Assembly: GCA_024403615.1 (NCBI GenBank)
Contig: JAKSRM010000002.1
Location: 1 to 64,000, forward strand
DNA from: Lachnospiraceae bacterium
GTDB lineage: Bacteria; Bacillota; Clostridia; Lachnospirales; Lachnospiraceae
Length of the DNA stretch: 64,000 bases
Direction of reading: 5' to 3'
The notes under the pieces are model-generated. The model saw nothing but the letters and a program-made list of their open reading frames with translations. It made no database searches and was not told the origin of the DNA. A program made the position numbers and the translations under genes. Positions 22,791 through 26,231 of this stretch are shown here, one piece after another; within the stretch, counting starts at the first letter, position 1; every line of letters begins with the position of its first letter.

Positions 22791-22819
22791 TTGACATTAC
22801 CCTTTTTTATACCCAAAAT
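22791..22819 (+). promoter_or_regulatory. Putative SigA promoter of ylmH
   Basis: A perfect TTGACA (22791-22796), 17-base spacer, CAAAAT (22814-22819). The predicted start point is at or within a base or two of the ylmH ATG, which would give a leaderless transcript. The alternative -10 TATACC (22809-22814) is too close to this -35. Confidence 0.5.
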
Positions 22820-22826
22820 TAGTTCT

Positions 22827-23591
22827 ATGAACGCAGATAAGGAGAAAGAATTTCTAATAAAAAGGATTTATGACCTGGCAGACACGTCCCTGTCCCGCCA
22901 GACCTATACCTATACCAACTTTCTATCTCCTTTGGAGCAGGATTATTTTTTAAGTTGCAGCAGCGATTTTTCTTCCGTAGGCTGCCAGTTATGGGGAGGC
23001 GCCAGTTCCTGCCTTAGAAAACTGATTATTTTCGGTTCGGAAGATAATATTGGCTATCCCCTTCCTTCTCCGATCCGGATTCTCCATATCGCTCCGAAAG
23101 CCGCTAAATTTGCAGAAGAACTTTCCCACAGGGACTATTTAGGCTCCTTAATGGCCCTGGGAATTGACCGTGGACTGACTGGCGACATTATTATTCGAGA
23201 CCATCAGGCTTGGGTATATGTGTTGGACAGCGTGGTCAGCTTTATTACCGAAAATCTGACTTCCGTACGCCACACAGCGGTCCTTTGCACAGAAGTTGAG
23301 GGTGAAATTCCGGAATTAGAAATAAAGTTCCAGACGATTTCCGCCAATCTGGCTTCTGAACGTCTGGATTTGATTTTAGGCGCCATTACCGGTCAAAAAC
23401 GAGAACAAGCAAAGTCTCTCTTAGCGGACCAAAAAGTGTTTGTAAACGGAAGATTGGCAGAAAACTCTGGAAAATCTTTAAAAGCAGGAGATGAAATCAC
23501 GGTCCGTGGCTTTGGTAAATTTATCTATGATGGAATCAGTTCCGAAAGCCGAAAAGGCCGTTTAAATATAACGATTCGTAAGTACGTATGA
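22827..23591 (+). CDS. ylmH: YlmH-family S4 RNA-binding protein (ribosome-associated quality control factor)
   Basis: 254 aa. The N-terminal two thirds match the YlmH N domain (FLSPLEQDYFL, RDYLGSLMALGIDRGLTGDI) and the C-terminal S4 domain runs from about residue 180 (SERLDLILGAITGQKREQAKSLL). In Bacillus subtilis YlmH binds stalled 50S-peptidyl-tRNA and can act in the RqcH quality-control pathway. I chose ATG 22827; an upstream GTG at 22755 would add an implausible Phe-rich leader encoded by promoter DNA. No Shine-Dalgarno precedes the ATG. Its stop overlaps the next gene's start (ATGA), so the two are co-translated. Although ylmH is usually near ftsZ, here it is divergent from mraZ. Confidence 0.9.
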   Translation: MNADKEKEFLIKRIYDLADTSLSRQTYTYTNFLSPLEQDYFLSCSSDFSSVGCQLWGGASSCLRKLIIFGSEDNIGYPLPSPIRILHIAPKAAKFAEELSHRDYLGSLMALGIDRGLTGDIIIRDHQAWVYVLDSVVSFITENLTSVRHTAVLCTEVEGEIPELEIKFQTISANLASERLDLILGAITGQKREQAKSLLADQKVFVNGRLAENSGKSLKAGDEITVRGFGKFIYDGISSESRKGRLNITIRKYV

Positions 23592-26185
23592 AAAAAATAA
23601 CCATGGGAATAATTGCACATGTTGATTCTGGAAAGACCACTTTATCGGAAGCGGTCCTTTTCCGCACCGGTGCAATCCGTAGTTTCGGCCGTGTCGATAA
23701 AGGAGCCTCCTTTTTTGACAACAATCAGCTGGAACGGGCCCGTGGAATTACCATCTACAACAAACAGACTACTTTTCAATACGGTCAAACATCCTTTAAC
23801 ATGATTGACACCCCTGGCCACGCAGACTTTTCTTCGGAAATGGAGCGTTCCCTTCAGGTGCTGGATTATGCAGTTCTCCTAATCAGTGCCGCTGATGGAG
23901 TCAAAGGACAGACCCAAACCATCTGGCGTCTTCTTTCCGAATACAATATTCCAACTTTTATTTTCTTTAATAAAATGGACCAGGACCGCGCAGACAAAGC
24001 AGTCCTGTTAAAAGAAATCCGAGAATTATCGTCTGATCTGGCTGTAGACTTTTCGGACGATGGAACCGATGAGTTTTTTGACCGGGTTGCTATGAGTTCG
24101 GAAGATGCGATGGAAGAATTTTTATCGGAGGGCGTTCTGACCGATGAAACGATTTCGTCTCTCATTGCCAACCGTCAGATTTTCCCTTGTTATTTCGGTT
24201 CTGCCCTTCAGATTCAAGGTGTTGACGAATTCTTATCCGGTTTGGACAAATATACGATAGATTTTTATCCAGAAGAATTGTCACAGGAAGAATTCGGCGC
24301 CCGGGTTTATAAGATTGATCATGCCGATGACGGCAGTCGTCTGACATTCATTAAAGTTACCCAGGGTGTTCTGAATAATAAGACCTTACTTCCTGACGGC
24401 GAAGATTCTTCGAAAATCAACCAAATTCGTCTCTACTCTGGTAATAAATACCAGCTGGCAGAAAAAGTCTCTGCTGGTGATATTTGTGCCTTAACCGGCC
24501 TGAAAGAAAGTTTCTCCGGCCAAGGCTACGGCTGTGAGTCCGAAATTGCTTTGCCTCTTTTAATGCCAATTTTGGATTACCGTGTAAGAATTTTAAGTAA
24601 TGTAGACGCAGTCTCTGCTCTACCTTATTTCCGTTCCTTAGAAGAAGAAAACCCAGAACTTTCCATCCGTTGGGACGAAGACAAAAACGAAATTTCGGTC
24701 TGTGTCATGGGGGAAGTTCAGTTAGAAATATTAAAGTCTCTGTTAAAGGACAAATTCAACTTGGATGTAGCCTTTGATTCTGGCTCCGTTATGTATAAAG
24801 AGACCTTAACGAAGCCAACCATCGGTGTCGGCCACTTTGAACCGTTACGTCATTACGCAGAAGTTCATCTCTTAATGGAGCCTCTGCCTTTAGGAAGCGG
24901 TTTGATTTTTGAAACGCAGGCAAAGACCGACTATCTGGCAAAGAATTGGCAACGTCTGATTCTGACCCATTTATCGGAACGTCAGCATCGCGGTGTTTTA
25001 ATTGGCGCGCCGATTACAGATATGAAAATCACGTTAATCAACGGAAGAGCCCACCTGAAACATACAGAAGGCGGCGACTTCCGTCAGGCCACCTATCGTG
25101 CCGTCCGTCAGGGGCTGATGATGGCAGAAAGCTGTATTTTAGAGCCGTTTTATAAGTTTACCATCGAAGTTCCTTCCGAAAATGTAGGCCGTGCTTTGAC
25201 CGATTTAGGCATGATGAATGCGGAATTTTCTATGCCAGATATGAACGTAGAAAAAGGTACTTCAATTATCAACGGCCGCGGACCGGTTGCCGCAATAAAG
25301 GATTATCCAAAGACTCTTACCTCCTATACCAAAGGTTTAGGAACGATCAGTTTCATGGTAGACGGATACGGACCATGCCATAATCCAGAAGAAGTTATGG
25401 AAGAAAAAGCTTATGACCCGTTAAGAGATTTGCGGAATACTCCAGACTCCGTCTTCTGCTCCCATGGAGCCGGCGTAATTGTGCCATATGATGACGTTTA
25501 TAATCATATGCATTTAGCTTTTGATGGCTCTGTCCGGGTTCGCTCCGGGGACGATTTCGATGTAACCAAAAGCAGTCGGACGGTTTCCGATACGCCGTTA
25601 GGCACCGAAGAAATCAACGCCATCATTAATAAATTCTCCCGTTCCAACGCGAAGGACAAATCTCAAGGGAATAATTGGAAGAAATCCTTCGGGGGAAAGA
25701 AAATCGAAATATCTGCGCCAAAAGTCCCTATTACTCCACCTTTCCCTATGGAAGATGCAGACTTTGTTGTAGTAGACGGATATAATGTTATTTTTGCATG
25801 GAAGGAATTAAACGAACTGGCAAAAGAAAATATTGATGCTGCCAGGGATTCCCTTTTGGACACTTTAAGCAAATTTAAATCCATGACAAAAGCGGAAGTG
25901 ATTGCTGTTTTTGACGCTTACCGGGTGAAAGGCCATGTAATCGAAAACAGCCGTTTCCAAGATGTTCAGATTATCTACACTCGAGAAGATGAAACTGCCG
26001 ACCAATATATTGAACGGTTCACTAACGATTTAGGGAAAAAGAAGAAAATCGTCGTAATAACCTCCGACGGTGCGGAACAAGTCATCACCCGAGGACAAGG
26101 CTGTAAACTAATCTCCTCCCGGGAATTCCAACTTCGAATCGAAGAACTGACAAAGCAGACGAATGAAAAATATAACATAAAATAA
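23588..26185 (+). CDS. Tet(M)/EF-G-like translational GTPase fused to YacP/Rae1-like NYN endonuclease
   Basis: 865 aa. Residues 1 to about 640 are a ribosome-protection-type translational GTPase: G1 AHVDSGKTTLSE (10-21), switch II DTPGHADF, G4 FNKMD, then the EF-G domains II-V. After a basic linker (about 680-715), residues 722-865 form a YacP/NYN domain (DFVVVDGYNVIFAWKEL; VIAVFDAYRVKG; DETADQYIERF; IVVITSDGAEQ) with acidic residues of a PIN-like nuclease site. B. subtilis YacP is Rae1, which cuts mRNA in the ribosomal A site. The overlap with ylmH suggests a shared task on stalled ribosomes. True tetracycline resistance is possible but not implied: Tet(M) itself is about 640 aa and lacks the NYN domain. 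Confidence 0.88.
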   Translation: MKKITMGIIAHVDSGKTTLSEAVLFRTGAIRSFGRVDKGASFFDNNQLERARGITIYNKQTTFQYGQTSFNMIDTPGHADFSSEMERSLQVLDYAVLLISAADGVKGQTQTIWRLLSEYNIPTFIFFNKMDQDRADKAVLLKEIRELSSDLAVDFSDDGTDEFFDRVAMSSEDAMEEFLSEGVLTDETISSLIANRQIFPCYFGSALQIQGVDEFLSGLDKYTIDFYPEELSQEEFGARVYKIDHADDGSRLTFIKVTQGVLNNKTLLPDGEDSSKINQIRLYSGNKYQLAEKVSAGDICALTGLKESFSGQGYGCESEIALPLLMPILDYRVRILSNVDAVSALPYFRSLEEENPELSIRWDEDKNEISVCVMGEVQLEILKSLLKDKFNLDVAFDSGSVMYKETLTKPTIGVGHFEPLRHYAEVHLLMEPLPLGSGLIFETQAKTDYLAKNWQRLILTHLSERQHRGVLIGAPITDMKITLINGRAHLKHTEGGDFRQATYRAVRQGLMMAESCILEPFYKFTIEVPSENVGRALTDLGMMNAEFSMPDMNVEKGTSIINGRGPVAAIKDYPKTLTSYTKGLGTISFMVDGYGPCHNPEEVMEEKAYDPLRDLRNTPDSVFCSHGAGVIVPYDDVYNHMHLAFDGSVRVRSGDDFDVTKSSRTVSDTPLGTEEINAIINKFSRSNAKDKSQGNNWKKSFGGKKIEISAPKVPITPPFPMEDADFVVVDGYNVIFAWKELNELAKENIDAARDSLLDTLSKFKSMTKAEVIAVFDAYRVKGHVIENSRFQDVQIIYTREDETADQYIERFTNDLGKKKKIVVITSDGAEQVITRGQGCKLISSREFQLRIEELTKQTNEKYNIK

Positions 26186-26231
26186 GTCCCCGACAGTTGT
26201 AATTTTACATCCATCGGGGACATTTTTTATT
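26186..26231 (+). terminator. Rho-independent terminator of ylmH/GTPase-NYN operon
   Basis: Stem GTCCCCGA (26186-26193) with TCGGGGAC (26214-26221) enclosing a second small hairpin (TGTAATTTTACA), followed by ATTTTTTATTT. It starts directly after the stop codon. Confidence 0.9.

Follow-up and report, generated by a model that had tools for sequence, protein, structure and literature searches.

A translational GTPase fused to a Rae1-type nuclease in Lachnospiraceae and other Clostridia, and its probable role as their Rae1

The window analysed here comprises 64,000 nucleotides (positions 1 to 64,000 of contig JAKSRM010000002.1, assembly GCA_024403615.1, Lachnospiraceae bacterium) and contains, downstream of ylmH, a gene for a protein of 865 amino acids (aa) in which an EF-G/Tet-type translational GTPase is joined to a Rae1/YacP NYN nuclease (23588..26185, plus strand). 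This fusion is probably the Rae1 of these bacteria, i.e. a ribosome-dependent mRNA endonuclease carried covalently by its own EF-G-like GTPase. We read it as such because the free rae1 gene is gone from its home operon, because the nuclease is present only in the fusion and because both active sites are strictly conserved. In Bacillus subtilis, Rae1 is described as an endoribonuclease of the ribosomal A site (PMC6613710).

The distribution of the nuclease was determined by a PF05991 search in 293 genomes of the class Clostridia, 192 of which were positive, with match details for 149. Open reading frames of at least 600 aa were counted as fusions and those of 150-240 aa as stand-alone genes; frame length is a proxy, but 49 fusions were read over their full length and entered into an alignment. 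Among the matches listed for the 149 genomes, 84 genomes carry the fusion only, 59 the stand-alone gene only and one carries both, while 5 are unclear. Three further genomes have a second, unlisted PF05991 match, and both forms are thus present in at most 4 resolved genomes, whereas independence of the two forms would predict about 36 among the carriers listed. An NYN_YacP domain is encoded in 90 of 100 Lachnospiraceae genera: it is fused in 76, stand-alone in 9 and unclear or accompanied by an extra fragment in 5, with none clearly having both forms. The fusion was found in 13 of the 14 members of the window's genus and is the sole NYN_YacP match in the source genome. The initial annotation had raised the question of whether genomes with the fusion lack a separate rae1, which is almost always the case; common coexistence of the two was not observed.

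Lachnospiraceae with a free rae1 usually have it in the order cysS-mrnC-rlmB-rae1 (L068-L072, L075). In the window's genus, cysS-mrnC-rlmB is kept and a different gene follows rlmB (12 loci read, the source genome's L168 included). The rlmB operon without rae1, together with the fusion as the sole NYN gene, is the strongest single evidence that the fusion acts as Rae1, as judged from sequence. An origin of the stand-alone Lachnospiraceae genes by fission from a fusion, a candidate arising from the weak NYN tree, is contradicted by their canonical operon position. Genus g36 contains fused-only, two-NYN-gene and stand-alone-only genomes side by side (G022, G120, G174, G208 and G253 vs. G051), possibly a snapshot of rae1 replacement.

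The NYN_YacP domain of the fusion (25757..26182, plus strand) was recognised with 155.6 bits (cut-off 24.6) and has B. subtilis YacP/Rae1 as its best structure match (5MQ8/5MQ9, E 7e-22). Residues D730, D776, D805 and D827, which we take to be the catalytic set from knowledge of PIN/NYN domains, align with Rae1 D7, D53, D81 and D104 and are invariant across the 49 fusions. The absence of these acidic residues, named in the initial annotation as a point that would speak against its proposal, was therefore not found. The products of mrnC and rlmB, the home neighbours of rae1, act on 23S rRNA, which would fit a GTPase working as an elongation or ribosome-assembly factor with a fused NYN domain that cuts rRNA or tRNA and not mRNA. 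Processing of rRNA or tRNA was also the first prediction made for the NYN family (cited in PMC4342817). Such a target is improbable given that B. subtilis Rae1 is described as an A-site endoribonuclease (PMC6613710) and that the acidic residues of the fusion match those of Rae1.

In addition to NYN_YacP, the fusion has the Pfam domains GTP_EFTU (174 bits), EFG_III, EFG_IV and EFG_C. Its G domain (aa 4-223, 23597..24256, plus strand, as for all following features of the locus) has intact G1, switch and G4 motifs (G1 AHVDSGKTT, RGITI, DTPGH, NKMD), including a catalytic-type histidine in DTPGH, and the core G motifs are invariant in the 49 aligned fusions. Domain IV (aa 399-513, 24782..25126) corresponds to the part that EF-G and TetM put into the A site. 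AlphaFold2 predicted an EF-G fold over residues 1-636 with a mean pLDDT (predicted local distance difference test) of 85, and this part of the model matches EF-G and TetM structures with Z scores of 32-41. The best solved-structure matches of the GTPase part are TetM, TetO and EF-G (PDB 3J9Y and 4V6V for Tet; approximately 30% identity). Pfam domains, G motifs and structure matches agree with the original description of the second gene as an EF-G/Tet(M)-like GTPase with intact motifs joined to a YacP/NYN domain.

Comparison with curated families places the GTPase elsewhere than within EF-G or Tet. The fusion reaches 407 bits with the NCBIfam model tet_protect, which is below the cut-off of 775 (TetM as control, 880), and 276 bits with the EF-G model, which is below the cut-off of 659. 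In the GTPase trees, which are quick trees with long branches, fused and unfused GTPases form one group apart from five Tet proteins (Shimodaira-Hasegawa-like approximate likelihood ratio test, SH-aLRT, 98-99). The tip of domain IV, GRAHLKHTEGGDFR (aa 486-499, 25043..25084), is conserved in fused and unfused relatives: the GTPase has HLKHTEGGDFR (H-x-KHTEGGDFR) where Tet proteins have YYSPVSTPADF and EF-G has SYHEVDSSEMAF (HEVDSSEMAF). In the fusion, KHTEGGDFR takes the place of the SPVSTPADF loop found in domain IV of Tet proteins. A family-specific tail past domain V (aa 593-642, 25364..25513; GYxxC...SVFCxHGxG..V.W..V..MH) is common to the fusion and the unfused sister GTPases and was not found in Tet or EF-G. 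Based on its own clade, scores below both curated cut-offs and the distinct domain IV tip, the GTPase part is classed by sequence as a translational GTPase of its own clade, neither EF-G nor a tetracycline-protection protein.

These data bear on an earlier proposal, according to which Tet proteins of ten clostridial species gained a YacP-like NYN RNase domain and use it in resistance (Atkinson 2015, PMC4342817). The ten fusions were placed in the Tet subfamily in that study and an RNase-based mechanism was suggested; TetM and TetO are the closest characterised sequence relatives. That the fusion protects ribosomes against tetracycline or another antibiotic is nevertheless highly improbable in view of its tet_protect score, the missing Tet loop, the clade apart from the five Tet proteins (SH-aLRT 99), its genus-wide presence in place of a housekeeping nuclease and the occurrence of an additional Tet-like protein of 644 aa in two genomes (G023 and G029). 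This matters for annotation: by score the genes are distantly related to tetracycline-resistance genes, and a role in resistance was once proposed for them, but the evidence presented here points to housekeeping mRNA decay.

The unfused sister GTPases are about 650 aa in length (L123-L129, L157-L159; e.g. L127:1498-3447, minus strand), share the tip and the tail (SVFC..G...W..MH) and end after it, with no nuclease. They form a clade (support 98), occur in Lachnospiraceae that have a free rae1 as well as elsewhere in the phylum, and apparently represent an uncharacterised subfamily of translational GTPases. Outside Clostridia, a GTPase of this type that is unfused and broken, with the tail NTPDSVFCAHGAG, was observed downstream of gpsB on a replicon of Limosilactobacillus fermentum (L117:3034-4897, plus strand). 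Among Lachnospiraceae, the unfused GTPase is present in 7 of 10 genomes with a free rae1, compared to none of 10 without any NYN gene (P 0.003). No sampled genome has both the fused and the unfused GTPase above the threshold used. In the class outside Lachnospiraceae, the unfused GTPase was not associated with free rae1 (2/20 vs. 3/18). Since the two proteins are fused in some genomes and separate yet co-occurring in others, their distribution suggests that GTPase and Rae1 are a functional pair, which would be optional and not obligate.

The two parts of the fusion are connected by a variable, mostly disordered linker (25514..25756); across the 49 fusions, the region that corresponds to aa 639-725 of the window's protein ranges from 71 to 122 residues. 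Within it lies a conserved helix (aa 673-687, 25604..25648), predicted with low confidence, which has the motif E-L/I-x-x-I-F/I-x-x-T-Y-G in most fusions and EEINAIINKF in the window, with E675 and I679 conserved in at least 90% of fusions. In the model, linker pLDDT values are mostly below 50 and the predicted template modelling score (pTM) is 0.68, and the position of the NYN domain relative to the GTPase is not reliable. The nuclease differs from free Rae1 at its end. At least 54 residues follow the last conserved glycine in all 33 single NYN copies (one from a naturally split fusion included), in contrast to only 25-37 in 29 of 53 fusions, and the NYN C-terminal segment of the window's fusion is likewise short. 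In B. subtilis, R166P in the C-terminal region is among the rae1 suppressor mutations that behave as loss of function (PMC6613710). The natural reading of the shortening is that the GTPase may have taken over the targeting role of the lost segment.

The split fusion mentioned above is that of genome G332 (L076:5513-8198, minus strand), which was not part of the ten Lachnospiraceae counted with a free rae1 but stands as an eleventh genome. Its GTPase frame (711 aa) and NYN frame (190 aa) differ in reading phase and share 23 bases, which represents either a true fission or a frameshift. Such a split, the long variable linker and the co-occurrence of unfused GTPase and free rae1 in 7 of the 10 Lachnospiraceae that have the stand-alone gene would all be expected if two independent ribosome factors had been joined for co-expression and stoichiometry, with no special mechanism. 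We consider this unlikely, as the conserved linker helix and the lost C-terminal segment suggest that GTPase and NYN domain depend on each other.

If the fusion serves these bacteria as their Rae1, it may work as follows. On 70S ribosomes that have paused, the GTP-bound GTPase would bind the factor site, and its domain IV, the tip of which differs from those of EF-G and TetM, would probe an empty or blocked A site and recognise or clear it. Upon GTP hydrolysis domain IV would withdraw, and the NYN domain on its long linker with the docking helix could then enter the A site and cut the mRNA. The steps would be sequential because domain IV and the NYN domain need the same A-site space.

Several points weigh against the fusion being a GTPase-delivered Rae1. 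B. subtilis Rae1 functions without any such GTPase, and only 2 of 20 Clostridia outside Lachnospiraceae with a stand-alone rae1 have it, so the GTPase is not required for cleavage as such. That the two forms exclude each other could simply reflect that a single nuclease copy is enough, and the fusion could serve co-regulation and not delivery. The NYN tree, although weak, requires three changes and not one clean fusion event, and a single origin of the fused GTPases, as in the best GTPase tree, has weak support (37). We put forward only tentatively a broader view, in which the GTPases would constitute an unrecognised third class of EF-G-like factors, neither translocase nor antibiotic protector, that act as a GTP-timed gate opening the A site of paused ribosomes to an mRNA nuclease. 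In Clostridia the gate would be welded to Rae1 as a single-protein, energy-dependent A-site mRNA cutter, and in other species the unfused version would work beside free Rae1.

The gene upstream of the fusion, ylmH (22827..23591), encodes an S4-domain RNA-binding protein of 254 aa with the domains YlmH_RBD (49.8 bits) and S4 and with B. subtilis YlmH as best structure match (8S1P, E 4e-17), in line with its first identification. R179 and R192 align with R182 and R195, which are required for the function of B. subtilis YlmH (PMC11317155). The ylmH stop and the fusion start overlap in ATGA (23588..23591), and translational coupling through this overlap is likely. An intrinsic terminator with an 8-bp stem and a T-run follows the fusion gene (26186..26228); in folding against shuffled sequence, the hairpin reached -18.8 kcal/mol (z -5.9) and none of the shuffles was equally stable. 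Open reading frames and hairpin thus confirm two overlapping plus-strand genes with one terminator after them. The stretch at 22791-22827 contains TTGACA-17-CAAAAT, the end of which lies 7 bases upstream of the ylmH ATG. The ATG has no obvious Shine-Dalgarno sequence, and a leaderless ylmH mRNA is possible; promoter-like matches near ylmH are no more numerous than in shuffled sequence. As a relative with 97% identity (L095/L104) has the same layout and the fusion architecture turns up again in dozens of families, the arrangement is real, far beyond chance and not an assembly artefact.

The initial annotation had interpreted ylmH and the fusion as a dedicated rescue machine that clears the A site, cuts the mRNA and rescues the peptidyl-tRNA, and had made this depend on a conserved ylmH neighbourhood. 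Such conservation was not found. Both genes are present in 78 Lachnospiraceae genomes; they are near each other in only 3 of these (the source genome included, one pair divergent) and, to the extent that the contigs reveal it, apart in the other 75. In a class-wide sample of 40 fusion loci, ylmH was never beside the fusion, and of the other genus members read only the 97% relative has it there. The two other close pairs are in L062 (4035-7468, plus strand; G331, another genus), where ylmH overlaps the fusion start by 4 bases in an apparently independent linkage, and in L063, where the genes are divergent and 1.1 kb apart. Clustering of the flanking genes revealed no conserved neighbour of the fusion beyond the genus level. 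A conserved ylmH-fusion operon, looked for in the 40 loci from the class, in 100 genomes of the family and among the genus members, was rejected. The overlaps here and in L062, the number of close pairs besides our own (2 vs. about 0.2 expected, rough P 0.02), the conserved YlmH arginines and RqcH in 13 of 14 genus genomes leave the rescue machine a slight chance; the adjacency is confined to one species, its 97% relative, one other genus and one divergent pair, and YlmH is widespread without the fusion. The linkage is a local, mostly coincidental arrangement and not a system.

The source genome (1.67 Mb, 29 contigs, 87% complete) has Lachnospiraceae/Parasporobacterium genomes from animal gut metagenomes as its closest named relatives and also encodes a separate EF-G of 709 aa. 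In this genome, tmRNA gave sub-threshold matches only and RqcH was not found. The absence of RqcH is probably due to incompleteness, since 13 of the 14 genomes of the genus, that of the nearest relative included, encode it. With RqcH in these genomes and both arginines kept in the own YlmH, ribosome-associated quality control is plausible in the genus. YlmH is probably an ordinary quality-control factor without a fixed partner, co-transcribed with the fusion by chance here and plausibly serving the 50S half after rescue.

In many gut Clostridia, Rae1 appears to persist solely as the C-terminal part of a GTPase that enters the ribosome. A lineage in which a ribosome-dependent GTPase carries Rae1 at all times points to a possible answer to the question of how Rae1 enters the A site and selects paused ribosomes, and offers a one-protein test system. 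The pair of ylmH and fusion had been thought unpublished, which holds as far as we searched; the fusion itself was described in 2015 (PMC4342817). No later paper on it was found in a literature search that covered few subscription journals. The architecture is therefore known; new, as far as we have seen, are how widely it occurs, its substitution for rae1, the separate GTPase clade, the tip, the tail and the linker motif.

Compared to known systems, the fusion shares the NYN_YacP domain, the four matching aspartates and the presence of one copy per genome with B. subtilis Rae1/YacP (5MQ8, 5MQ9). Rae1 is free, and in the rlmB operon of relatives that retain it, whereas the fusion is GTPase-borne, lies at a new locus and lacks the C-terminal segment. 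YlmH resembles its B. subtilis counterpart (8S1P) in the YlmH_RBD and S4 domains and the conserved arginines, but the latter is encoded in the ylm operon with no GTPase beside it. With Tet(M) and Tet(O), the fusion has the EF-G-type multi-domain fold in common; it differs in its separate clade, other tip, extra tail, score below the Tet cut-off and possession of a nuclease. A homologue of the same fusion is listed at NCBI as 'translation factor GTPase family protein' (WP_320690501.1, Monoglobus), a name without a function. The clostridial 'Tet' proteins with a YacP-like NYN domain (Atkinson 2015, PMC4342817) have the same architecture, but were treated in a short remark that connected them neither with a replaced Rae1 nor with a clade of their own or unfused sister proteins.

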